A stretch of 64,000 nucleotides of DNA from Candidatus Zymogenus saltonus (lineage in GTDB: Bacteria > Desulfobacterota > Zymogenia > Zymogenales > Zymogenaceae), in assembly GCA_016929395.1 (NCBI GenBank), contig JAFGIX010000027.1, positions 62,001-126,000 on the forward strand, given 5' to 3'. The notes under the pieces were generated by a model, which was not told the DNA's origin, searched no databases, and saw only the letters and a program-made list of their open reading frames with translations. Shown piece by piece: positions 817 through 15,601 of the stretch (position 1 is the stretch's first letter; each line of letters begins with the position of its first letter). A program made the translations under genes and the position numbers.

Positions 817-1320
817 ATGAATGAAGGTGAAAATTTGAAGTTGTTCAGGAAGAAGAAAAACCTGACACAACAGGAATTGGGGGAGATGCTGGGGGTAAAG
901 AAATCTACGGTGAGCAGGTGGGAGAGCGGCGAGCGTGCGATGACCGTCGAAAACATCAAAAAGGTATCTCACGTACTCAACGTTCCGGTCAACGCTTTCC
1001 TGAGCGACAACGACTCCTACGAAAGCACAAGGAGATGGGACAAGGAAAATCCGCCGGATGACGGGCAAGACAACTCGGTAATCCCTAAGGAGGAAATTCC
1101 CGCCGATCAGAGCTTCGAGATCGTTCGGGAGGACAAGGGTGAATTCGTGTCGGATGAAGCGCGTCTTTCCCTTCCCAAGATCGACGACCCGGAGATCATT
1201 CAGGCCTTCGAGGGATTTAAGGAGTACGACAAGCTGACCCCTGAAGACAAGGATGATATCAAGGATATTCTCAAGCTCGCGCTGAAGATTATAGAAAAGC
1301 GCACTGTTTCCGATAAATAG
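817..1320 (+). CDS. XRE-family transcriptional regulator (ImmR/CI-like)
   Basis: The 167-residue protein has a canonical XRE helix-turn-helix at about residues 6-60 (LTQQELGEMLGVKKSTVSRW). An acidic linker follows, then a helical C-terminal segment at about 120-160. This is the architecture of phage CI-like and ICE ImmR-like repressors. An ImmA/IrrE-type protease gene follows on the same strand at 1758; in ICEBs1 the equivalent protease cleaves the XRE repressor to release the element. The likely binding sites are the paired palindromes at 563-611. There is no strong ribosome binding site; the ATG at 817 is chosen because it leaves a complete HTH. Confidence 0.85.
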   Translation: MNEGENLKLFRKKKNLTQQELGEMLGVKKSTVSRWESGERAMTVENIKKVSHVLNVPVNAFLSDNDSYESTRRWDKENPPDDGQDNSVIPKEEIPADQSFEIVREDKGEFVSDEARLSLPKIDDPEIIQAFEGFKEYDKLTPEDKDDIKDILKLALKIIEKRTVSDK

Positions 1321-2456: not shown

Positions 2457-2783
2457 ATGGGACTAAAGCTCTTTAGATTCTCGATTATTTTACTTGTCAT
2501 CTACATGCCGATCCACATCGCCGTCTTCTTCGCCGCACCGGGGCCGATTTTGATCGGGGATGCCGTCGACGAAATGACGGCGGAGAGTATCCTCTACCAA
2601 AGGCAGCTTGTGGTTACAAACATCGCCCTCGAGTATTTAGACCTTACCATCAAGGCCCTGGAGATAGAGGCCGAACTGGGCAACATGAGAGAGCTGAACG
2701 AATTAGTCAAGGGTGAGCGAAAATGGAGGAATTCCCTCGTGGTGAGGATAAACAGGATAGAGTCTGATCTGAAGTCGAAATGA
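2457..2783 (+). CDS. Hypothetical small membrane-anchored protein
   Basis: The 108-residue protein has one hydrophobic N-terminal segment (about residues 9-30), either a signal anchor or an uncleaved signal peptide. A mostly alpha-helical, charged remainder follows, rich in Glu and Leu. A GGGG-type purine run lies just before the ATG. No family is recognised. It is flanked by the ImmA-like gene upstream and a convergent PP2C gene downstream, and neither gives a functional clue. Confidence 0.55.
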   Translation: MGLKLFRFSIILLVIYMPIHIAVFFAAPGPILIGDAVDEMTAESILYQRQLVVTNIALEYLDLTIKALEIEAELGNMRELNELVKGERKWRNSLVVRINRIESDLKSK

Positions 2784-2877: not shown

Positions 2878-4080
2878 TCAGATCTGGCCCTCGGGAAGGT
2901 TCGTGATAGGCTGCTTTTTCTCCTCTTCCGTCTCTTTGCCCTTTTCCATCTCGATTTTCTGCTTTTTCTTCTCCTTCAGATCGTCCTTATCCATCCCTTC
3001 TCGATCTCGCCCTTTTTCGGGGACCACCATCTCCACCCCGTTTTTGGGCCCGGGAATATCCCCGGCCTTCCCCTTGATCAGGCCGATTACCGCCCCGACC
3101 GCATACCAAAATCCCACGAACATCAGGATTGTCAGGGCCAGTCCGAACGTCGTAAGGGCTACGATTACGGGGGTATTTAAAACTATCTTTCCCGCACCAT
3201 AGCCCGCCTGAATGCGGTCTCCAGGCGCCGCCTCGCCCAAGGGGGGCGCTTCTCCTATACCGATCAGCGCCCCGCCGAACCTGCGATCCCTCCTCATGCG
3301 CCCGAATTCGAGCGCCGCAACGGTGATGTTGTCGAGGCCGCCTCTCCCGTTGGCGAGGTCGACGAGCCGCTTGAGTCCCCCGTTGAGCTGCGCCTCATGG
3401 TGGATCGCCCCCAGTATCTCCTCGTCGGAGACGAGGTCCCAGAGGCCGTCGGAGCAGAGGAAGAGGACGTCCCCGTCAATCAGGTCGACCCTGACCGGCA
3501 TATCGATCTTGATTTTGCTTCCCGCGCCGAGGGCCCTCGTGATGACGTTTTTCCCCTTGAAGTTTCCGGCGTCCTTGGGATCGATCTTCCCGCTCCTGAT
3601 AAGCTCCCCCAGGAGGGAGTGGTCTTCGGTAACCGCCTTGATGGTCTTATCTCGAATGACGTAGGCCCTGCTGTCGCCTATGTGTCCTATGTAGACGCTG
3701 TTTCCGATAACGAAAGCGGCGGTCAGGGTGGTACCCGGCGGTTTCTCCCCCCCCTTGGCCAAGGACCTGATGCGCCTGTCCGCCTCGCCTATGAGGTTTA
3801 CAGTTGCGTCAACGATGTTGTCGCCGAACCTCGAGAGGCCCCAACCGTCTTCCGTGACGAAGGAGCCGCCTATGAGCCTCACGGCGGTGCCGCTGGCAAC
3901 CTCCCCGCCGACGTGCCCCCCCATGCCGTCAGCCACGACCGCCACGGCCCTCACCCCGGGGGGACGGACATCCTCTGGCCCGATCGTCATGATGAAGTAG
4001 TTGTCCTCGTTCTTTTCCCGGACCCTGCCGACGTCGGTCAGCGCCGCCGCCCTTATCCTGATCTCCTTATCTGCCGCCAT
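2878..4080 (-). CDS. PP2C-family Ser/Thr protein phosphatase with C-terminal membrane segment
   Basis: Residues 12-260 form a complete PP2C domain. The metal-binding and catalytic signatures are visible: REKNEDN (E25-D26), VADGMGG (D51-G52), GDSRAY (135-140), CSDGLWD (D211) and GGLDNITV (D250). It should remove phosphate from Ser/Thr residues in the cytoplasm using Mn2+/Mg2+. A long hydrophobic stretch at about 304-335 is followed by a highly charged Lys/Glu tail, so the enzyme is probably membrane-anchored from its C-terminal side. The membrane Ser/Thr kinase at 5606-7186 lies on the same strand two genes upstream and is the obvious partner. A GGGTGG ribosome binding site supports the ATG at 4080. 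Confidence 0.92.
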   Translation of the reverse strand: MAADKEIRIRAAALTDVGRVREKNEDNYFIMTIGPEDVRPPGVRAVAVVADGMGGHVGGEVASGTAVRLIGGSFVTEDGWGLSRFGDNIVDATVNLIGEADRRIRSLAKGGEKPPGTTLTAAFVIGNSVYIGHIGDSRAYVIRDKTIKAVTEDHSLLGELIRSGKIDPKDAGNFKGKNVITRALGAGSKIKIDMPVRVDLIDGDVLFLCSDGLWDLVSDEEILGAIHHEAQLNGGLKRLVDLANGRGGLDNITVAALEFGRMRRDRRFGGALIGIGEAPPLGEAAPGDRIQAGYGAGKIVLNTPVIVALTTFGLALTILMFVGFWYAVGAVIGLIKGKAGDIPGPKNGVEMVVPEKGRDREGMDKDDLKEKKKQKIEMEKGKETEEEKKQPITNLPEGQI

Positions 4081-4317
4081 ATTCCACCCTTTTCAAGATT
4101 CCCCCACCCTTTTCCCGCCCCTTTTTTTGTTAAATATTCCCATATGTATATTACAATAAGACTGCTTAAAGGGCCTTGGTGTCAAACGGTTGATGTGACA
4201 GTCTAATCTCCCCTATTTGAATTGCACCATAAATGAACACCACCACTATTGTCGGATCTCAAAAAAACAATTCCTTTCTCCCTCTCCTAAAAAACGACCG
4301 CCAAGCCGACCCCGTCC

Positions 4318-5589
4318 TCAATGGACGATCTTGACCCTTGTCCCCACCTTCACCGCATTCCTGAGCTTCACGACGTTCTTGCTGTTCAGCCTAATGCACC
4401 CGTGGGAGACGGGCGCGCCAAGGAGATACGGCTCGTTAGTCCCGTGGATTCCGATTCCGGTCCAGCCGGGCGTGTTCAGCCTTATGAAGTAGGGGCCGTA
4501 GGCGAGTTCTATATTCTTGAAGCGCCAGTCGGAGCTGCCGTGGATGTTGGATACGGTGAAATCCCCCTCCGGGGTGCGGGAGTCCCCGACCATCTTCTTG
4601 TCGGCGAGGTCGGGATTCGATCCTACCGAGACCGGAAATTCACAGACGACGTTTCCTTTGGAATCCAAGACATCCATGATATATTTGGTCTTTCTGATAA
4701 CAACGCTGTAGGTCTCGCCCGGATTCGGCTCCCAATCGGGAACGGCCTTGAACTCCTCCTCGGAGTAATCGGGGCCCAGAACGATGAAGGTATCCTCCCC
4801 GTTCAGCCTGACACCCCTTCCCACCCCGAGGACCTCGATCAATCTCCGTGCGGTCTCCTCCGATCCCCCGGGATAATAGACAACGGTGGTCTCGGCCGCC
4901 CCCCCCATACCCTTTGCCGTACCGAAGGTCTTGACGGCGCCGATCTCCGGAGCCGATGTCGTAAGGTCCTCCAAAAAGGACGCCGTGGCGTCCTCCCTTC
5001 CGGTACCGTTCAACAGATATATGGACGACCCCTCTCTCCCACCGGAGAGCAGCCTCGATACGGCGTCTATGCCGAGGATTACCTTTATATATCCCTTGAT
5101 GAGGGTGTTGTCGCTCACCCCCTCGCCCACCCCCAAGGCCTTTACGACGGCGTTTAAGGCCGCCTCGTCGCCGGGGTAGTAGTGGATATATGTTTTAAAA
5201 CGCCATATGGGAACTGACATGGGCCTGACCGTGTCGTCGTCTCTGACCCTTATCCCCGCCGCCCCCAATCTCTCCTTTGCGGCCCCCAGCAAATCGACTC
5301 CCCTATCCGCCGTGTAGGCGCCGCAGGCGCTTATCAAGGCGACCTCCGCCGAGACCGGAGACATAAATGCGGGGGATACCCCCGTGTCGTCCGCCTGTCC
5401 CACGAATGAAGACGGCACGACCTTCATTCCCTGTCTTTTCCCGGCCTCCCCGTACGCATTGAGGCCCGCAAAGAGAAAAAGGAGAAAAATGGAGATAACG
5501 AAAATCCCCGTGCGCGAAAAAGCCTTACTCCCCCTTTTCGCGCCCAGTTCACATCTGCCATCTATTTTCAAAGTCATATTATCCACCAT
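4318..5589 (-). CDS. Exported L,D-transpeptidase (YkuD family) with LytR_C-like repeats
   Basis: The C-terminal 130 residues form a YkuD L,D-transpeptidase domain with the hallmark IHGTN and SHGCIRL motifs; the latter holds the catalytic Cys. Such enzymes make 3-3 peptidoglycan cross-links or attach proteins to peptidoglycan in the periplasm. A hydrophobic N-terminal anchor precedes a region of LytR_C-like units with the pattern xVYYPGG or IYLLNGTG. The gene directly follows the Ser/Thr kinase gene. The longest frame begins at 5622 inside the kinase gene; the ATGs at 5589 and 5577 are better placed, and 5577 has GGTGG upstream. Co-transcription with the kinase suggests wall cross-linking is part of the same response. 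Confidence 0.88.
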   Translation of the reverse strand: MVDNMTLKIDGRCELGAKRGSKAFSRTGIFVISIFLLFLFAGLNAYGEAGKRQGMKVVPSSFVGQADDTGVSPAFMSPVSAEVALISACGAYTADRGVDLLGAAKERLGAAGIRVRDDDTVRPMSVPIWRFKTYIHYYPGDEAALNAVVKALGVGEGVSDNTLIKGYIKVILGIDAVSRLLSGGREGSSIYLLNGTGREDATASFLEDLTTSAPEIGAVKTFGTAKGMGGAAETTVVYYPGGSEETARRLIEVLGVGRGVRLNGEDTFIVLGPDYSEEEFKAVPDWEPNPGETYSVVIRKTKYIMDVLDSKGNVVCEFPVSVGSNPDLADKKMVGDSRTPEGDFTVSNIHGSSDWRFKNIELAYGPYFIRLNTPGWTGIGIHGTNEPYLLGAPVSHGCIRLNSKNVVKLRNAVKVGTRVKIVH

Positions 5590-5605
5590 TTTTAAGTTTC
5601 TTCTA

Positions 5606-7186
5606 TTACCAATCCGTAACATTTACGTAGTCGTCGATCACCCACCCGGTGGTTCCCCCCGAAGTTTCTATCTTGTACCAGTAATCGTAGGTAAAGAGCT
5701 TGACGTTCCCCTTGTTTACGTAACCGTAGTAGGTCTCGTTCCTTTCGGTAATCCTAAATCTCACGTAATACTCGGAACTGGTCTCTCTCAAGACCGTAAC
5801 GGCGTGCCCCTTGTTCAGCGTCTTTCCTCCGCCGCCGTCGAGCCTTACGGTCGTATTGTACCAGAGCTTTCCCTCGTTTTCACTCCCGGACAGTTTCTTT
5901 TCGAGGATGTTCACGCCGTCACCCCTGTTGAGTTTTGTAACCACGCTGTTGCTTACGCCGGGTCCCGATCTGATATTGACCCTGTCGCCGGTAATATATC
6001 CGTACCTCGGGGACGGCTCCGGGGCGGGAGCCGGCTCCTCTACGGGCACCGGGGTCTCCACCGGCGGCAACGTACTTGGTGTGGATATGGCCGGGCCCTC
6101 CGCCTTCCCCTTGAAATAGAACTTTACGACCAGACCTAAAACCACGCCCACAATAATGAGGAATATGAGGGCGCCGATACCGATTGCTGTTATCACCACG
6201 CTCTCTCCCTTTGCCTCCGGTTTTATCCTATCTCCGGGTGGTTCGGCCGCTAAAGTTTCGCCGCCCTTCGATGACACAATCGTCTTTTCATCCCTGACGG
6301 AGACCGGCTCCTCCTTCGATTCCACAACCGCAGCCACCGCCTTGGGTGGTGCGTACATCTCCTTCGGCAGCTCGCCCGCAAGTCCCACCCTCAAGGCCTC
6401 AGCAAACTCGTTTGCGGTTTTAAATCGCTTGTTACGACTCTGCTCCATCGCCTTTGCGATGACGCCGTCTACCCAGGGGGGGAGGGAGGGATTTACCTTC
6501 GTGGGCTCGGGGTAATCCCCCTTGATCTTTTTGTACATGATCTCCTGGGTGGTATCCCCAGGATAGGGAGAGGCCCCCGTGATCATGCGGTAGAAGGTCG
6601 CCCCCAGCGAGTAGACATCGGTCCTCTGATCGAGGTTGGAGCTCCCCTCGAACTGCTCGTGACTCATATATTCTATCGTTCCGATCGACTGGCCGGTGAC
6701 CGTGAGCTTCTCCTCCCAGGCGGCCCGGGCGATCCCGAAGTCGGTTATGACCGCCCTTCCTTTTTTGTCCACGATGATATTCGCCGGCTTGATGTCCCTG
6801 TGGATCACGCCGATCTGATGGGCGTGGGAGAGGCCGTCCGCTATCTGGCAAGTCAGATCCACCGCATCCTTCAAGGGGAGGAGGCCCTTTAACAAGATAT
6901 CGGCCAGGTCTTCGCCCTCGACGAACTTCATAGAGAAGAAATAGGAATCATCGTCGGTCCCCACCTCGAAGATGGTCACTATGTTCGGGTGATCAAGCTT
7001 GGCGGCGTTTCTCGCCTCCCGCATGAAGCGCTCCACAAAACCTTTCTTCCTGGAGAGATTGGGCAGCAGAACCTTGAGGGCCACGATCCTGTCAAGCCCC
7101 TCCTGCTTCGCCTTGTAGACGATCCCCATTCCCCCCTCGCCTATCTCCTCTATTATTTCGTAATTGCCTATTCGCTTCCGTGCCAT
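5606..7186 (-). CDS. Transmembrane Ser/Thr protein kinase (PknB-like) with periplasmic SH3-like sensor
   Basis: Residues 1-270 are a complete eukaryotic-type kinase: glycine loop GEGGMGIVYK (17-25), catalytic K38, HRDIKPAN (D131), DFG (149-151) and a TDVYSLG helix. One membrane segment at about 330-357 leads to a Pro-rich linker (368-393). Two SH3-like modules follow: one from about 396 (VNIRSGPG pattern, bacterial SH3b) and a second ending GWVIDDYVNVTDW. SH3b domains commonly bind peptidoglycan peptides, so this replaces the PASTA sensor of classic PknB (inference). The L,D-transpeptidase gene overlaps or abuts its end, and a PP2C phosphatase lies next on the same strand. Confidence 0.93.
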   Translation of the reverse strand: MARKRIGNYEIIEEIGEGGMGIVYKAKQEGLDRIVALKVLLPNLSRKKGFVERFMREARNAAKLDHPNIVTIFEVGTDDDSYFFSMKFVEGEDLADILLKGLLPLKDAVDLTCQIADGLSHAHQIGVIHRDIKPANIIVDKKGRAVITDFGIARAAWEEKLTVTGQSIGTIEYMSHEQFEGSSNLDQRTDVYSLGATFYRMITGASPYPGDTTQEIMYKKIKGDYPEPTKVNPSLPPWVDGVIAKAMEQSRNKRFKTANEFAEALRVGLAGELPKEMYAPPKAVAAVVESKEEPVSVRDEKTIVSSKGGETLAAEPPGDRIKPEAKGESVVITAIGIGALIFLIIVGVVLGLVVKFYFKGKAEGPAISTPSTLPPVETPVPVEEPAPAPEPSPRYGYITGDRVNIRSGPGVSNSVVTKLNRGDGVNILEKKLSGSENEGKLWYNTTVRLDGGGGKTLNKGHAVTVLRETSSEYYVRFRITERNETYYGYVNKGNVKLFTYDYWYKIETSGGTTGWVIDDYVNVTDW

Positions 7187-7376
7187 GATCCCCCCCCGTC
7201 ATTAAAATGACATTCCTAATTATCCGCTATAGCCCTAAATTTTAGCTCCAATTTCAGATATAATAGCAAAAAAGCGTATTTTTTTGCCAAAAAAGTTTAT
7301 ATAAAAATAGCATACATATATAAGACGACCGGTTTTTTAGAAAGCCGTCATTCAAACCATCGAGCCGTCAATCGTG

Positions 7377-8681
7377 CTACCTGACCGCGTAGAGGAAGCC
7401 GTCGCCCCCGCCGAAATATATTGTGGAGTTGGAATCCACTCTCGCCACCGCGGGAGACGCCTTCACGGCGCCTCCGACCTTAAGCTTGGAAAGGAGGCTC
7501 CCGGTCTTCGAGTCAAGGGTGTAGAGGTGGCCGTCGTCGCTCCCGAAGATGACCGCCCCATCCAAGACGACCGGCGATGAGACCACCGCCCCCCCGGTCG
7601 TAAACCACCAGGCCTCCTCTCCCGTGGCCGCATTCAGGGCGTAGAGGTTTCCGTCTAAGCTCCCGAAATAGACCATCGCACCCGATCCGTCGCCCCCCTC
7701 CCCTTTTTTTGCCTTTTTTAATATTCCCCCCGATATTGTGGGGGAAGAGGTGACCCCGCCCCCGGTCCGAAAACGCCAGAGAAGCCCTCCCTTAAAGGCA
7801 TCCACGGCATAGAGGAATCCGTCGAAGCTCCCGAAGTAGACGACCCCGTTGAATATCCCAGGAGACGAGACCACGTCACCACCAGTCTCGAAGCGCCAGA
7901 GTAGCTCCCCGGACTTGGCCGAGAGGGCGTAGAGGCTGTCGTCGTTGCTTCCCACGTAAACCATGCCCAACCCCACCGCCGGCGACGAGAGGATCCAACC
8001 GCCGGTTTTGAAGCTCCACCGCTTCTCCGCCTTTTTTTCGTTTACGGCGTAAAGGTTGCCGTCCCAGCTCCCAAAAAAGAGCGAGCCTCCGTAAAGCGCC
8101 GGGGAAGACGTTATGCAGTCCTTGGTCTCGAACCGAAAGGATTCATCTCCTTTCTTGATCGATATAGCATAGAGGATACTGTCGCTTGATCCTATATATA
8201 TCATCCTCCTGCCGTACGCAGGCGACGAGAATATCTTCCCCCCCGTTTGAAACCGCCAAAGCTCGTCGCCGGTCCTTCCGTCAACGGCGTATATATTGCC
8301 GTCCGCACTCCCGAAGTACACCAGCCCCTCCCTGACCAGGGGAGATGAATAGAGGGGACCTCCTATCTTCCTCTTCCAAAAAACCTCCGATGGCGGGGCG
8401 ATCGTCGGACCTTCGTAGAAACCGGTGTGGAGGAAGTTTCCCCGAAACATCGGCACATACGGAATGGGAGCGCCGACCTCATCCCCACCAAAAACCATCC
8501 CACCGCTATCGGAATTATCGCCCCCCTCGACGGGACCGCTAAGAAAACCGGGAATGCGAATATATCTTTTCTCCGGCAGCAAGGTCAGCACATTTATCGC
8601 CAGGGCCGCCACAATCGCCGCAGAGGTCATGACCATAACGAAAGAGCGGCCGCCCTCCCTTGACCGTATCCCGTCAGACAT
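7377..8681 (-). CDS. Membrane-anchored PQQ-type beta-propeller protein (BamB-like)
   Basis: After an N-terminal membrane segment (about 14-35), the 434-residue protein consists of about eight repeats of the pattern VYFGSxDGxLYAVDxxTGxxLWRF. This is the tryptophan-docked PQQ_2/BamB propeller family. The blades are unusually regular, which may reflect recent internal duplication. No catalytic PQQ-dehydrogenase ligands are evident, so a scaffold or binding role outside the cytoplasmic membrane is likelier than an enzyme. It lies 190 bases upstream of the Ser/Thr kinase on the same strand. A related lipoprotein at 42499-43626 also neighbours a PP2C gene. Confidence 0.85.
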   Translation of the reverse strand: MSDGIRSREGGRSFVMVMTSAAIVAALAINVLTLLPEKRYIRIPGFLSGPVEGGDNSDSGGMVFGGDEVGAPIPYVPMFRGNFLHTGFYEGPTIAPPSEVFWKRKIGGPLYSSPLVREGLVYFGSADGNIYAVDGRTGDELWRFQTGGKIFSSPAYGRRMIYIGSSDSILYAISIKKGDESFRFETKDCITSSPALYGGSLFFGSWDGNLYAVNEKKAEKRWSFKTGGWILSSPAVGLGMVYVGSNDDSLYALSAKSGELLWRFETGGDVVSSPGIFNGVVYFGSFDGFLYAVDAFKGGLLWRFRTGGGVTSSPTISGGILKKAKKGEGGDGSGAMVYFGSLDGNLYALNAATGEEAWWFTTGGAVVSSPVVLDGAVIFGSDDGHLYTLDSKTGSLLSKLKVGGAVKASPAVARVDSNSTIYFGGGDGFLYAVR

Positions 8682-9096: not shown

Positions 9097-10059
9097 CTAT
9101 TCATAAGATGAATAGTATGTGGCCTTACAGTCCGGACAGATGCCGTGAGAAAAGTCGGCCTCGGAGTTGTCCCTGATAAAAACCTCGAGTTGAATCCATT
9201 TCCCCTCTTTGTTTCTGATCTTCTTGCAGACGGCGCAGATGGGGATTATCCCGCTGAGCCTCTTCGCCTTTTCTATAGATCTCTTCAGCTCCACCAGTAT
9301 CTTCTTCTCCCAGTCGGCAAGTTCCCGCTTCGTAATGTCCCTCAATATCGCTATAATCACAACCTCGTCCTCGAGGCTCGCCGCACACGCGCTGACCTCG
9401 ACCGGGACAACTTCCCTATTATCGCCCATTACAAAAAAGTTTTCCAAAACCGGCTTTTTGCTTTTTAGAAGTTTTTTGATAAGCTTATTGAAGTTTTTGA
9501 TCTCATCTTCGGGGAAGAGCCTCGAGACGTCCATCTCAGAAAATCTATCGTTTGATATACCGAAGAACTCCTGAGCCCTTCTGTTCGTTTCGATTACCCC
9601 AAGGTTTAAAGCTTCAAAGATCAGCATCGGATCGTTTGCGCTCTCGAGAATCGTACGGTATTTCCGCTCGGATCGACGAAGTTGAACGCCGACGTGTTTG
9701 TTGTAGAGCGCCACCTCTATTGCCGCCTTCAGCGCTCTCTCCTGAAACGGCTTGACTATATATCCGAAGGGCTCGGTCTCTTTCGCCTTCATGATGTTTT
9801 CGTCGTCGGCAAAGGCGGTAAGAAATATAACCGGTATATCGAGGTCCTCCTTGACAATTCTGGACGCATCGATCCCGTCCATTTCCCCGGGCATGACGAT
9901 GTCCATGAGAATAAGATCCGGACTCAGTTTTTTCGCCTTATCCACCGCCTCTTTCCCCGAGGACGCCCTGCCCACAACATCGTATCCCATGGATGACAAC
10001 CTCTCCTCAAGCTGCATCGAGATTACAACTTCATCATCAACTACCAGTATCCTGGACAT
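9097..10059 (-). CDS. Response regulator: REC-PAS with C-terminal Cys-rich motif
   Basis: The receiver domain (first about 120 residues) shows VVDDE, phosphoacceptor LILMDIVMP and VKPF motifs. A PAS domain follows, and then the conserved tail with ICAVCKKIRNKEGKW and HGICPDC, known from many deltaproteobacterial PAS proteins. Its four Cys residues may bind metal. There is no DNA-binding or catalytic output. The start is set at 10059 by a strong AAGGAGGAGG site. The gene overlaps the end of the upstream hybrid kinase by 23 bases, so the two are translationally coupled, and that kinase is the likely phosphodonor. Confidence 0.9.
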   Translation of the reverse strand: MSRILVVDDEVVISMQLEERLSSMGYDVVGRASSGKEAVDKAKKLSPDLILMDIVMPGEMDGIDASRIVKEDLDIPVIFLTAFADDENIMKAKETEPFGYIVKPFQERALKAAIEVALYNKHVGVQLRRSERKYRTILESANDPMLIFEALNLGVIETNRRAQEFFGISNDRFSEMDVSRLFPEDEIKNFNKLIKKLLKSKKPVLENFFVMGDNREVVPVEVSACAASLEDEVVIIAILRDITKRELADWEKKILVELKRSIEKAKRLSGIIPICAVCKKIRNKEGKWIQLEVFIRDNSEADFSHGICPDCKATYYSSYE

Positions 10060-12568
10060 ATTTGCCCTCCTCCTTGAGCGCACTAAACTTAATCACAAAT
10101 TGAGTTCCACTGTCGCCTGATTCTACAAATATATCTCCCATCAGCTGTTCCCTGACGAGGTTCCTGACAAGCCTGAGACCCAAGCCATCGACCTCGTTAA
10201 TATCAAATCCCTCTGGCAATCCCACACCGTTATCCTTAACCACGACCGTAATAACGCCCTCGTCGGATTCCCTGATCGTGCACTCAAGGGTCCCCCTTTC
10301 CCCCTCTCCGAACGCGTGTTTGTAGGCGTTCGTAAACAGCTCATTCAGTATCAGGCTTAGAGGAATGGCCTGGGTCACGGGAATTGTAACGTCAAAGTCC
10401 TCGATAACTGGAATTATATTCGCGTTTCTCTTTGCGTGGACCACGGAAATGTAGTTTATCAGGTCTTGGGTGTGTTTAACAAGGTTTATTTTATCGAATC
10501 TCTCGCTCTGGTAGAGCTGGGAATGAATAAGGGCCATCGTGTGAATCCGCGAGCGGGCGTCATTGAACAGCTCGAAACTGTCCCTGCCGCCCATCCTCAT
10601 CATGTCCATATCGAGAAGTCCCGATATGATCTGCAGGTTGTTTTTGACCCTGTGATGAACCTCCTTCAAGAGAATCTCCTTTTCATCAAGAGACTGTTTT
10701 ATCTTCTGCTCGGCCAACTTCCTTTCCGTTATATCCTTAGTAAAATTCACCGTGGCAATGACATCTTTACCGTTGTCAAAAATGGGCGATATGGTCGCCT
10801 CTGTATATACCCCCGTCTCTTGATCAAACCCCTGTATTACAACGGGCTTTTTTGTCCTGATAACCTTTGTATGAGGGCAGTCGGGCAAGGGCGCCTTCAA
10901 TCCGTGCTCGAGCTCGTAACAGAGTTTTCCAACAATGTCCCTTGGATGCCTGTTCAGGGATTTGGCGAAGGCCATGTTCACCTTTATGTAACAATGATTT
11001 CTATCTATTATCGATATCTTGTCGGAGAAGGAATCGAAGGTAGTCTGCCATTCCTGGGCTGCCCCTATGATCTTCTCCACCCATTTCTTGCGAAAGGTTA
11101 CTTCGCTTACGACAACGACATACGACGCTGTTTTGCCGCTGCTATCAAACAGGGGGGTTATCTTAAACTCGGAATCAAAGGCGGTGCCGTCCTTTCTCAA
11201 GTTTTTCTTCTCCCCCGCCCATGTTTTACCGGAAGAAACCTTGCCGTACATCTTTTTCCGGTCCCGCTCCGAAACCTGCTCCGCATCCAGCGAATCGATG
11301 CCTTTGCCCAAAAGCTCCTCCTCCGAATAGCCGTACATCTTCCTTGCTGTGCCGTTGGCATATACGATTTTCAGATCGGCGTCGGTTACGATTATGGCAT
11401 CGGATACCTGTTCTGTGACGGCGCCTTGAAACTTCAAGGCCTTGTCAAGCTTCTTCCGATCCGTGATGTCGCGCAAGAGGATCAAGACCTCGTCTTCTCC
11501 GCTCACAGCCGTCCTGGCCTCAAAGTCCTTAGACCCCTTCACGAGCATCGGCATCCGGCACTCCATTACCTGAACATCCCCGCTTTCGAGACAGCTTTTG
11601 ACAGAGCCCATAAGCCTTTCACTCATATATTCGGACAGTATCTCTTCAATCCTCCTTCCTATAATCTTCTCCGGCCTTGCGGAAAGGCTTTCCAAACCGG
11701 TGCTGTGAAAATCCAGGAATTTGCCGTCCCTTGAGATACGAAAGACAATGTCCGGAAGCGTCTTTAAAAGGGCCTTGTTTCTCCCTTCGCTCTCCTTCAG
11801 CGACGCCTCGGTACCAACCCGCCCGGTGACATCCTCGGTATGGAGCAAAACGAGGTCCGGGGGAACGTATGTATAGCTTAAAGCGAGGTGTCTTCCCTTC
11901 CCGAGAATATCGCATCCCCCGGTCATCTCCCGCTTCACCGTTGACTTCCTTCTGTAGCAGTTGTACAGGTCCCTCAATATCTCCTTGTCTTTATCGAATA
12001 TCTCGCTTGCCGCCATTCCCAGATAATTGGAGATCTTTCCATCGGTGGCCGTTAAGGCGGCGTCGTTGTAGTTAATAAGGATAAAACCCTCCTTCCTCTT
12101 TTGCCATGTATATGTGGGGATCGGAATCCCCATATATTGGGCCCTAATCTTCAGCTTCGACTCACTCAGCTTCGCCTCGGTCTCCACCCTCAAGACCGCA
12201 TATGAGAGCGCCCTGACGAGGAGTCCCGGTGTAATCTCCCTCTTGAAAAGGTAGTCCTGTGCACCCCTCGTAACCGCCTCCGTGGCGGTCACCTCATCTT
12301 CGACCGACGTAAGAACCACGATCGGCGTGTTCCCGGCCCTGTCCCTAATGGTGAGAAACGTCGAGAGACCCCCGCTGTCGGACAACAGCAGATCCAACAG
12401 CACCACGTCGATTCCCCCCTCCGCCAAGCGTTTTATCCCCTTGTCAAGACTTGGTCTATGCTCCACGGTAAAGGACTTCCCCTTGGCGTCTTTTATCATA
12501 TTCTCGATCAGCCGGGCATAGCCGAGGTCGTCCTCTATCAACAACACATTAATATGCTTCTTTCTCAT
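10037..12568 (-). CDS. Hybrid sensor kinase: REC-multiple PAS-HisKA_2/HATPase
   Basis: The protein (about 843 residues) starts with a receiver domain (LLIEDD, VLLDLLLSD). Four or so PAS domains follow, and then a HisKA_2-type dimerisation box (EVHHRVKNNLQIISGLLDMD) with the phosphorylated His. The HATPase domain has NELFTNAYKHAF, DNGVGLP and DGLGLRLV. HisKA_2 kinases typically phosphorylate stand-alone receivers, here probably the coupled regulator at 9097. No membrane segment is visible, so it should sense cytoplasmic or redox cues through PAS. The ATG at 12568 with GGAGAG upstream is preferred to the longer frame starting at 12604. The N-terminal REC-PAS half resembles the proteins at 13493, 58570 and 60520. 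Confidence 0.92.
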   Translation of the reverse strand: MRKKHINVLLIEDDLGYARLIENMIKDAKGKSFTVEHRPSLDKGIKRLAEGGIDVVLLDLLLSDSGGLSTFLTIRDRAGNTPIVVLTSVEDEVTATEAVTRGAQDYLFKREITPGLLVRALSYAVLRVETEAKLSESKLKIRAQYMGIPIPTYTWQKRKEGFILINYNDAALTATDGKISNYLGMAASEIFDKDKEILRDLYNCYRRKSTVKREMTGGCDILGKGRHLALSYTYVPPDLVLLHTEDVTGRVGTEASLKESEGRNKALLKTLPDIVFRISRDGKFLDFHSTGLESLSARPEKIIGRRIEEILSEYMSERLMGSVKSCLESGDVQVMECRMPMLVKGSKDFEARTAVSGEDEVLILLRDITDRKKLDKALKFQGAVTEQVSDAIIVTDADLKIVYANGTARKMYGYSEEELLGKGIDSLDAEQVSERDRKKMYGKVSSGKTWAGEKKNLRKDGTAFDSEFKITPLFDSSGKTASYVVVVSEVTFRKKWVEKIIGAAQEWQTTFDSFSDKISIIDRNHCYIKVNMAFAKSLNRHPRDIVGKLCYELEHGLKAPLPDCPHTKVIRTKKPVVIQGFDQETGVYTEATISPIFDNGKDVIATVNFTKDITERKLAEQKIKQSLDEKEILLKEVHHRVKNNLQIISGLLDMDMMRMGGRDSFELFNDARSRIHTMALIHSQLYQSERFDKINLVKHTQDLINYISVVHAKRNANIIPVIEDFDVTIPVTQAIPLSLILNELFTNAYKHAFGEGERGTLECTIRESDEGVITVVVKDNGVGLPEGFDINEVDGLGLRLVRNLVREQLMGDIFVESGDSGTQFVIKFSALKEEGKYVQDTGS

Positions 12569-12604
12569 CCGACTCTCCATCCATACATATCTATGGGCGG
12601 TCAA

Positions 12605-13492
12605 TCCCCAAAAGACCTCCCTGCCGACACCTCCCCCTTAAGCACCCCAAAACTCCATCGCCCGTTAAATAAAATTTCCCCTTTATCGTAACGTTATGGG
12701 CGGATAATTCCATAAAGTAAAAAACCGCCTTGCGGCGGTCCAAAAAGAACATCGATAAAAATAGATACCGAATCATTCAATTACTGCTTTAAAAAATGAA
12801 CCCCGCAAAAACGAACAACAATATCATGCCATCCATATGAACTCTCCAATCCCACCGAAGACCTTTAAATCCCTACTTTCTAAAAAGACCGTTATATCTA
12901 TCGGCCTATTGGCCCATCCACCCATCCGCCCATCGACCCACCGGACCGCCAAAACCGGATTATAAGACCGCCGTCGGAAACAGGGAAACAAGGCATCATC
13001 AGACAGCTTTTTCAAGCCTCATCAGAAATAATCGATAAAATTACCGCGAATCAGCGAGGTGAATATCTATGGTCTCTCCTTACTCTTCACAGATCTACCA
13101 TAGAAAAATTTGATATAGGAGTAAATTGGTTCACGGGAGCGTTACGGTTGACTCAAGTCAAATATTACTAAAAATCTGGAAACGTTGTCAAATCCTTTTT
13201 TTTCTCCCCCGAAATTGCATGACCACCTTTAAAAACTTCGTGGAAACAACCGCTTAAAAAGAATACATACATAACCGATCCTCCCTTCCCCCAAATCCCA
13301 TCCTCCCCAATTCGCCCCCTACCCCAGTCGAATTTTCCCTCATTCCCAATCCCCCCGACTCCCTTTTTTTATATCGTTTCCCCTGATGTTGAAAACGAGG
13401 GCAATGCCCCCGCCCAACCTATTCCCCCCACCTATTCAATCACTCAAAACCACCCCATCCGCCCCATCCCGCCGATCCCTTCCATCCCGATC
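12605..13492. other. 888-base non-coding stretch with hairpins and pyrimidine-rich DNA
   Basis: No credible gene is seen; short minus-strand frames lack family features. It holds a minus-strand terminator (12717-12740), short CCATCCAC-like repeats near 12910-12950, and an 8-base inverted repeat TCTATGGT/ACCATAGA (13066-13104). It also holds a TTGACT-CA-AGTCAA palindrome (13148-13161) and a C/T-rich tract from about 13280 to 13490. Its length could hide a small RNA. Confidence 0.5.
12717..12740 (-). terminator. Orphan rho-independent terminator
   Basis: On the minus strand ACCGCC-GCAA-GGCGGT is followed directly by TTTTTT, a textbook intrinsic terminator. The nearest upstream minus-strand gene ends at 13493, about 750 bases away, so it may end a short transcript from the gap or a long 3' untranslated region. 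Confidence 0.7.
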
Positions 13493-15601
13493 TCAAACCT
13501 TCTTTTTATCGTTGGTCTTATATCCCTTCTCCCTGTACATGGCAACGTCCGCGGCCCTGATAAATTCCTCGATGGCAATATCTTCCGTAAGGATTTCGAT
13601 CCCGAAGCTTATTCCTATATCTTTAAATGTCTTGGATACCTCCCTCTCGATACGCTTTGCCACCTCCAAGGCGTCCTCCTTTTTTGCGTTCGGGAGGATC
13701 ACGGCAAATTCGTCTCCGCCGTACCTGAACGCCGCGTCGCTCTCCCTCCTCACGGATTTCTTTGTGATCTCCCCGATCTCCCTCAAGACATCGTCGCCCT
13801 TCTGATGCCCGTATCTATCGTTATATTGTTTAAAGTTATCAAGGTCGAATATCATCAGACATATGGGGTAGGACATCCTCCTGGCCTTTGCCGCCTCCTC
13901 CTCGATCTTTCTGTAGAAATAGCGCTGGTTATAGAGTCCCGTAAGGCTGTCGGTGATGGAGAGCGTCCATAGCTCCTCCTCCAGCTTCTTTCGGTTGGTA
14001 ATATCGACCAGGGAGCCCATTATGGAGATCGGCTTTTCCTCCTCGTCGATAACGAGGCTCGCCGAGAGCTGGACGTTGAACAGGGAGCCGTCCTTCTTCC
14101 TTGCGAGCACCTCCCCGACCCAGCTCTCCATCCCATCCTGGGAATCTATACTTTCCCTGATCCTCCCCTCGTCGTACCAGATCTCCTCCCAGGACAACCC
14201 AATGACCTCGGAGATGTCGTCGTACCCCCACATATTCAGGAACGAGGGATTGACATAGGTGACGATCCCGTTTAGATCAAAGAGCACTATGGCGCTGATG
14301 GAGGACTTCATCGCCCAGTCGCTGATCCTCATCGTCCTCTCTGTTTCCTTTTGTTCCGTAATGTCCCTGGAGATCAGGATGATACTGTTAATCTCTCCTT
14401 CGGAGTCCCTGACCGGATAGAAATATCCCTCCACCCAGCGTTTAACGATCTTGGGGGATTCGGTCGTAACATACTCCACCGGAGGAATGACCGTCTCTTC
14501 CCCTGAAAACGCCCTTTCGACATAAGACATAACCCCGAGTCTCTCGAGCTGCTCGTCCTCGAGAATGTTGTAGTCTTTTAGATCGTCCAGAGAACCTTCC
14601 CAAAGCTTCTCCCAGGAACGATTGACATTTACGATCTTGCCTTCGGTATTCATAACCTGGATGCTGAAAGGCGACTGCTCTATCATCCTCTTGAACTGCT
14701 CTTCGCTCTTGCGCAGGGCCTCCTCCACTTTCTTCCGCTCCTCTATCTCCAATTCCAGTTTTTCGTTTATCTCCGAAAGCTCCTTCATCCGTTTCTTGAT
14801 ATCGACCTCGAGGTTATCCCTCGACTTCTTGAGCTCTTCCTCGGCCTTTTTCCTGTCGGTAATATCCTCCGTGAATACGAAGACGGATTCGGGGGAGGCC
14901 GGCATCATAGTGACCGTCAGGAATCTCGTTTTCTTCAAACTCCTGTAGCTGTACTCGTAATCCTTTTTTATTACGATATTCTTTTTCAGGCAGCGGGCGA
15001 TCTCCCGGACGATCTCCGGCTTGTCGGAATGGAGCTCCTCCGCTCTTATATTCAACATCTCATCGATCTTTCCCCCGGTAATCTCCCGCGCGGCCCTGTT
15101 GTAGTCCACCAGTATGAAATCCCCATCGGAGAGACGCCATGTATATGAAGGAAGGGGAAACCCCATAAAGAGCGTGCGAAGCTTCTCCTCGGAATTCCTG
15201 ATCTCCTCTCCGGCCTTCCTCCTCTCCATGACATACCTGAGCGAGCGAATGAGATTGTCCGGCCTTACATCGATCTTGAACAGGTACTCGTCCGCACCCT
15301 TATTGAGCGCCTCCAGCGCCAATTTTTCATCGTCCAGGGACGTTATTATCACGATCGGGATTTCCGCGGCCTCACCCTTGATCTTCAAGAATGTGTCGAG
15401 GCCGCTGGAATCGGGGAGCATCAGGTCAAGGAGTATGATTCCGACGTCTTTCTTGGCCAGGTATTTAATCGCCTTTTCGATCGATTCGGCGTGAAGGAGA
15501 TCGAACGAAGCCGTCACCGTGTCCTCGAATATCTCTCTAATCAGATTCGCGTATACCTGATCATCCTCGACGAGGAGGACTAATGTCGGTCCATCTTTCA
15601 T
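13493..15601 (-). CDS. Diguanylate cyclase: REC-three PAS-GGDEF
   Basis: The 702-residue protein has a receiver domain (residues about 5-120, with ILLDLMLPDSSG), a PAS domain and a coiled coil (about 250-300). Two further PAS domains and a GGDEF domain follow, with intact GGDEF at 628-632. A product-inhibition I-site (RESD) sits five residues before it, so it should synthesise cyclic di-GMP with feedback control. No membrane segment is present. The REC-PAS half is paralogous to the hybrid kinase at 10037 and the cyclases at 58570 and 60520. The cognate kinase is unknown. The phosphoacceptor Asp lies in the LLDLMLPD segment. Confidence 0.94.
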   Translation of the reverse strand: MKDGPTLVLLVEDDQVYANLIREIFEDTVTASFDLLHAESIEKAIKYLAKKDVGIILLDLMLPDSSGLDTFLKIKGEAAEIPIVIITSLDDEKLALEALNKGADEYLFKIDVRPDNLIRSLRYVMERRKAGEEIRNSEEKLRTLFMGFPLPSYTWRLSDGDFILVDYNRAAREITGGKIDEMLNIRAEELHSDKPEIVREIARCLKKNIVIKKDYEYSYRSLKKTRFLTVTMMPASPESVFVFTEDITDRKKAEEELKKSRDNLEVDIKKRMKELSEINEKLELEIEERKKVEEALRKSEEQFKRMIEQSPFSIQVMNTEGKIVNVNRSWEKLWEGSLDDLKDYNILEDEQLERLGVMSYVERAFSGEETVIPPVEYVTTESPKIVKRWVEGYFYPVRDSEGEINSIILISRDITEQKETERTMRISDWAMKSSISAIVLFDLNGIVTYVNPSFLNMWGYDDISEVIGLSWEEIWYDEGRIRESIDSQDGMESWVGEVLARKKDGSLFNVQLSASLVIDEEEKPISIMGSLVDITNRKKLEEELWTLSITDSLTGLYNQRYFYRKIEEEAAKARRMSYPICLMIFDLDNFKQYNDRYGHQKGDDVLREIGEITKKSVRRESDAAFRYGGDEFAVILPNAKKEDALEVAKRIEREVSKTFKDIGISFGIEILTEDIAIEEFIRAADVAMYREKGYKTNDKKKV

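Follow-up and report, generated by a model that had tools for sequence, protein, structure and literature searches.

A Ser/Thr kinase with predicted periplasmic SH3b modules encoded beside an L,D-transpeptidase and a PP2C phosphatase in Candidatus Zymogenus saltonus

The window, a 64,000-nucleotide stretch of DNA from Candidatus Zymogenus saltonus, carries on its minus strand, from 8681 to 2878, genes for a beta-propeller, a Hanks-type Ser/Thr kinase, an L,D-transpeptidase (LDT), and a PP2C phosphatase, in this order (Table 1). Within the small group to which this bacterium belongs, the kinase–LDT–PP2C order is an old one. The cluster is a local version of a familiar wall-signalling layout, with parts that are individually ordinary, a combination that is uncommon, and a restricted distribution. 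We favour, with about an even chance of being correct, the reading that the kinase and the phosphatase are a wall-sensing pair and that the LDT is co-expressed and indirectly controlled. Except in a few species, little is understood of how cells choose between ordinary 4-3 and 3-3 wall cross-links, and a co-inherited kinase, phosphatase, and LDT would provide a compact system for asking whether a wall-sensing kinase bears on this choice.

Table 1. Features of the cluster (window coordinates; residue numbers refer to the encoded protein)
Feature	Coordinates	Strand	Remarks
PQQ/BamB-like beta-propeller	7377..8681	-	PQQ_2 2.4e-45; N-terminal hydrophobic segment; predicted periplasmic
Hanks-type Ser/Thr kinase	5606..7186	-	kinase domain 9-256, membrane segment 335-353, Pro-rich linker, bacterial SH3 ~396-523
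L,D-transpeptidase	4318..5622	-	signal peptide or anchor 38-56, two LytR_C stretches, YkuD 305-432, HGT...SHGCIRL
Stp1-like PP2C phosphatase	2878..4080	-	PP2C 15-257, membrane segment 305-323, charged C-terminal tail
Overlap of kinase 3' end and LDT frame	5606..5622	-	first-ATG model
Hairpin then T6, possible terminator before PP2C (weak)	4295..4311	-	just 3' of LDT

The four genes lie where a preliminary description of this DNA had placed them, and their domains were confirmed by Pfam and NCBIfam searches. If the LDT frame starts at its first ATG, it shares 17 bp with the kinase frame, and later ATGs would abolish the overlap. The propeller and kinase genes are separated by 190 bp, and the LDT and PP2C genes by 237 bp. 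Terminator-like sites in the stretch numbered 8, compared with 6.7 expected in shuffles, which is not above chance. Because of the two gaps and the possible terminator, a single four-gene operon is not established, and the firm pair is kinase–LDT. Each protein has one hydrophobic segment (residues 14-32 in the propeller; Table 1 for the others). Based on these segments and family knowledge, the kinase and PP2C domains are predicted to be cytoplasmic, and the SH3b region, the LDT, and the propeller are predicted to be periplasmic. The catalytic motifs of the kinase, the LDT, and PP2C were all intact. Upstream on the same strand, window positions 9097-15601 contain three PAS/response-regulator signalling genes, including those for a HisKA_2 kinase and a GGDEF protein.

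For comparison, the window's genome is designated G000; G001 belongs to the same genus, G002 and G003 represent other genera of the same family, and the remaining genomes sampled share only the phylum. The kinase matched Pkinase with an E-value of 4.4e-49 and contains the Hanks-type motifs GEGGMG, VALK, HRD, and DFG at residues 16, 35, 129, and 149, respectively. Its APE-like motif is SHE at residue 175, and that of the G003 orthologue is SPE. Pfam SH3_3 was detected in three stretches (8.2e-12) located beyond the hydrophobic segment, which is the arrangement of an SH3b receptor kinase and was also found in the G003 orthologue. The score for the PASTA Ser/Thr kinase family (NF033483) was 331 bits, below its cut-off of 450, with the match confined to residues 8-363, and no PASTA domain was detected in the kinase by the Pfam scan. 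The proposal that SH3-like modules occupy the place where PASTA domains would stand was thus borne out. The SH3 region alone is about 55% identical in G003 (L055) and is conserved as much as the remaining protein. In the kinase tree, the window kinase grouped with both kinases of the G003 cluster with support of 100/99. The AlphaFold model of the SH3b region, predicted from a single sequence, had a mean pLDDT of 36.0 and was too poor to use.

The gene next to the kinase had been described as encoding a peptidoglycan-crosslinking L,D-transpeptidase. This assignment holds, with a YkuD match of 1.3e-20 and an intact HGX...SHGC motif (HGT...SHGCIRL at residue 393), but the description had overlooked the LytR_C domains, which were detected in two stretches with an E-value of 1.2e-9 and a score of 39.3 bits against the Pfam cut-off of 22.2. 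In Desulfobacterota, enzymes that join LytR_C to YkuD are uncommon: LytR_C is present in 22 of 198 genomes, and among the loci checked its combination with YkuD was found in this group only, for which the nearest named relative is Ca. Zymogenus. The idea that LytR_C marks L,D-transpeptidases across the phylum was rejected, since no YkuD match was obtained at any of the 16 LytR_C loci outside the group; by eye, many of these loci resemble TPR proteins. Mycobacterial proteins with LytR_C only are known to affect envelope integrity.

Orthologues of the LDT occur in G001-G003. All four group genomes have two LytR_C-type LDT paralogues, which formed two well-supported clades. The second paralogues are located at L039:7728-8879, L040:7494-8603, L041:7130-8299, and L042:1021-2229, and their active-site motif is S(R/E)GCIR compared with SHGCIR in the first; the two paralogues therefore differ at that position. 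Each group genome also contains three or four classical transpeptidase genes, indicating that the LDT is not the sole cross-linker. The AlphaFold model of the LDT, based on a two-sequence alignment of the window protein and one relative, had a mean pLDDT of 37.7 and was likewise too poor to use.

PP2C matched the Pfam family with an E-value of 1.4e-10 and a score of 41.7 bits (cut-off, 20.3), and contains the motifs DGMGG, GDSR, CSDGL, and DNIT; with its membrane segment, it agrees with the membrane-anchored phosphatase originally described. Stp1/IreP (NF033484) was the top family (3.8e-62), yet the score of 209.8 bits was below the cut-off of 230. Relatives of this PP2C were found in G001 (L036), G003 (L038), and G002 (L048), and the PP2C tree gave the G003 and G002 copies no resolved placement. 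The propeller scored 202.4 bits against BamB (TIGR03300), below the cut-off of 285.2. In G002 (L048) and G003 (L038), propellers with 40% and 34% identity to that of the window, respectively, are fused to Ser/Thr kinases, which suggests that the separate window propeller may be a detached sensor or partner module.

A scan of GTDB contigs with the LDT, which reaches close relatives only, gave a single match, a Candidatus Zymogenus contig with 62% identity. In G003 (L038), a single strand encodes in turn a kinase fused to a propeller, a VWA protein, the SH3b kinase, the LDT, another kinase whose C-terminal region is different, and PP2C. The identities between the window and G003 were 50% for the kinase, 46% for the LDT, and 47% for PP2C, and the kinase frame of G003 touches that of the LDT by 1 base. 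The G003 VWA protein (L038:10327-11493), whose gene separates the SH3b kinase from the propeller kinase, has hydrophobic segments at both ends. In G001, the order is LDT, PP2C, a gene for a 108-aa protein, and M78, on a contig that breaks off upstream of the LDT; no kinase end was found in the approximately 100 bp before the LDT, and no such kinase was found in this 88%-complete genome. In G002, the LDT gene adjoins genes for a WG-repeat protein and an M78 protein, with no kinase or PP2C there, and a kinase–propeller fusion followed by PP2C is located on another contig. From these layouts, the recurrent unit is the kinase–PP2C pair, and for two genera the linkage of kinase and LDT is certain.

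The window also contains an M78 peptidase gene (IrrE-like; 1758-2234), and M78 genes lie near the LDT in G001 (L036) and G002 (L037) as well. The 108-aa protein encoded at window positions 2457-2783 had no Pfam match, and the same gene is found near the LDT in G001 (L036). Immediately beyond the edge of the window, G000 and G003 share a collinear block of about 20 kb, which ends at an XRE gene (window 817-1320); thus, the shared order is partly regional inheritance. The G003 cluster sits about 27 kb beyond the collinear block and has retained its internal order despite this separation. Two other kinase–PP2C neighbourhoods were observed in the window's genome. One (L044:7034-11747) encodes a PQQ-like protein, a PP2C with 45% identity to that of the window, and a kinase that has WG repeats and an N-terminal zinc ribbon. 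In the other (G000:C65:40900-55800; L045 and beyond), PP2C adjoins a Ser/Thr kinase with two flanking FHA domains, and a penicillin-binding transpeptidase gene lies about 10 kb away.

Conservation of synteny had been suggested as a check, and its outcome was divided: the kinase–LDT–PP2C order recurs in G003, but no conservation was seen across the sampled loci of Desulfobacterota. The survey used short flanks and best matches only, so that rarer cases may be missed. Neither a kinase nor PP2C was found within about 1.5 kb of YkuD at any of 26 YkuD loci elsewhere in the phylum, and YkuD was not found within about 1.5 kb of the kinase at any of 26 kinase loci outside the group, about a dozen of which have PP2C near the kinase. 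Among the matches listed from 297 genomes of the phylum, full-length SH3b-kinase matches were obtained only in G000 and G003. Based on these three results, conservation of the cluster across Desulfobacterota was rejected.

In the favoured reading, the predicted periplasmic SH3b modules of the transmembrane kinase would read peptidoglycan or its fragments, the kinase would signal by phosphorylating cytoplasmic targets, and the membrane-tethered PP2C would remove phosphate from these targets. Expression of the LDT with the kinase would cause sensing and 3-3 cross-linking capacity to rise together, and LDT activity would most likely be tuned indirectly, through expression, export before translocation, or substrate supply, rather than by phosphorylation of the exported LDT. 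We infer the SH3b ligand and the direction of the signal from family knowledge. This reading is favoured because each step has precedents and the LDT is not the sole cross-linker. The domains, the motifs, the tight kinase–LDT adjacency in two genera, and the recurrent kinase–PP2C pairing support it, as do the LDT–PP2C order kept in the congener, the conservation of the SH3 region, and the precedents in Enterococcus faecium, Clostridioides difficile, and mycobacteria. On the other hand, the LDT stands apart in G002, no kinase was found in the congener, whose contig ends there, the linkage was not found at the loci sampled outside the group, the LDT–PP2C gap has a terminator-like site, and part of the conserved order is regional synteny. 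The earlier suggestion that the kinase adjusts 3-3 cross-links was unsupported; because the kinase domain is predicted to be cytoplasmic and the LDT to be exported, such control needs an intermediate step. We consider it unlikely that the cluster is a dedicated circuit of a diderm-type lineage, in which the SH3b kinase would read cross-linking and, with PP2C, set the output of the adjacent LytR_C-bearing LDT.

An appreciable, although less than even, probability is given to the explanation that the kinase and phosphatase form a general module for envelope signalling whose sensors can be exchanged and that the LDT is a co-inherited, perhaps co-expressed passenger outside the circuit. G002, in which kinase–PP2C and the LDT occur separately, fits this explanation, as do the freely varying sensors of the group kinases (SH3b, propeller, WG repeats, FHA, and other C-terminal regions) and the general synteny of the neighbouring region; however, a passenger accounts less well for kinase and LDT frames that adjoin or overlap each other in two genera and for a G003 cluster that keeps its order away from the syntenic block. 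The LDT could also be the input, with its cross-linked product or the LDT itself read by the kinase SH3b, so that the kinase would monitor cross-linking and change cytoplasmic physiology. The LDT and SH3b are predicted to be on the same membrane side, whereas the kinase domain and the LDT are not, and the recognition of 3-4 cross-linked peptidoglycan by autolysin SH3_3 domains, as cited in PMC8262956, is in line with such an input; the AlphaFold models of both partners, however, were too poor to use, and we regard this explanation as improbable. A chance neighbourhood with no functional link would agree with the absence of the cluster from the sampled loci elsewhere in the phylum, but it is extremely improbable given that two genera whose proteins are 45-50% identical share this order.

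The PASTA systems PknB–PstP, PrkC–PrpC, and Stk1–Stp1 share with the window a one-pass Hanks kinase, an adjacent Stp1-like phosphatase, a wall enzyme nearby, and proposed wall sensing. In contrast, the window kinase has SH3b modules instead of PASTA domains, a YkuD transpeptidase adjoins the kinase, and the host lineage is diderm-type. In the actinobacterial PASTA-kinase locus, a penicillin-binding protein gene lies beside the kinase, and Stk of E. faecium is a PASTA-type kinase. PASTA kinases sense muropeptides and adjoin their phosphatases (reviews PMC12729407/PMC6213207). The Kinase-TM-SH3b architecture is common to the window kinase and an SH3b kinase of Synechocystis (gi|1006577) reported in 2005 (PMC1262709). 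PQQ-repeat kinases of Deinococcus and Streptomyces, described in the same year (PMC1262709), combine a kinase with a PQQ propeller like the G002 and G003 relatives, whereas the propeller in the window is encoded by its own gene. In C. difficile, phosphorylation by PrkC blocks the export of the wall hydrolase CwlA, and SH3_3 domains are taken as peptidoglycan-binding (PMC8262956). This system resembles the arrangement proposed for the window in that a Ser/Thr kinase controls a secreted peptidoglycan enzyme and SH3_3 domains are involved, but the SH3_3 domains are on the hydrolase rather than the kinase, the enzyme is an endopeptidase, and control is exerted by an export block. The preliminary description knew of no described system with this layout and thereby overlooked a functional precedent: in E. 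faecium, reduced activity of the phosphatase StpA together with the carboxypeptidase DdcY allows the L,D-transpeptidase pathway to operate (Sacco et al. 2014, as summarised in PMC12729407 and PMC6213207). StpA/Stk resembles the arrangement proposed for the window in that L,D-transpeptidase cross-linking is influenced by the state of Ser/Thr phosphorylation; the control in E. faecium is thought to be metabolic and indirect.
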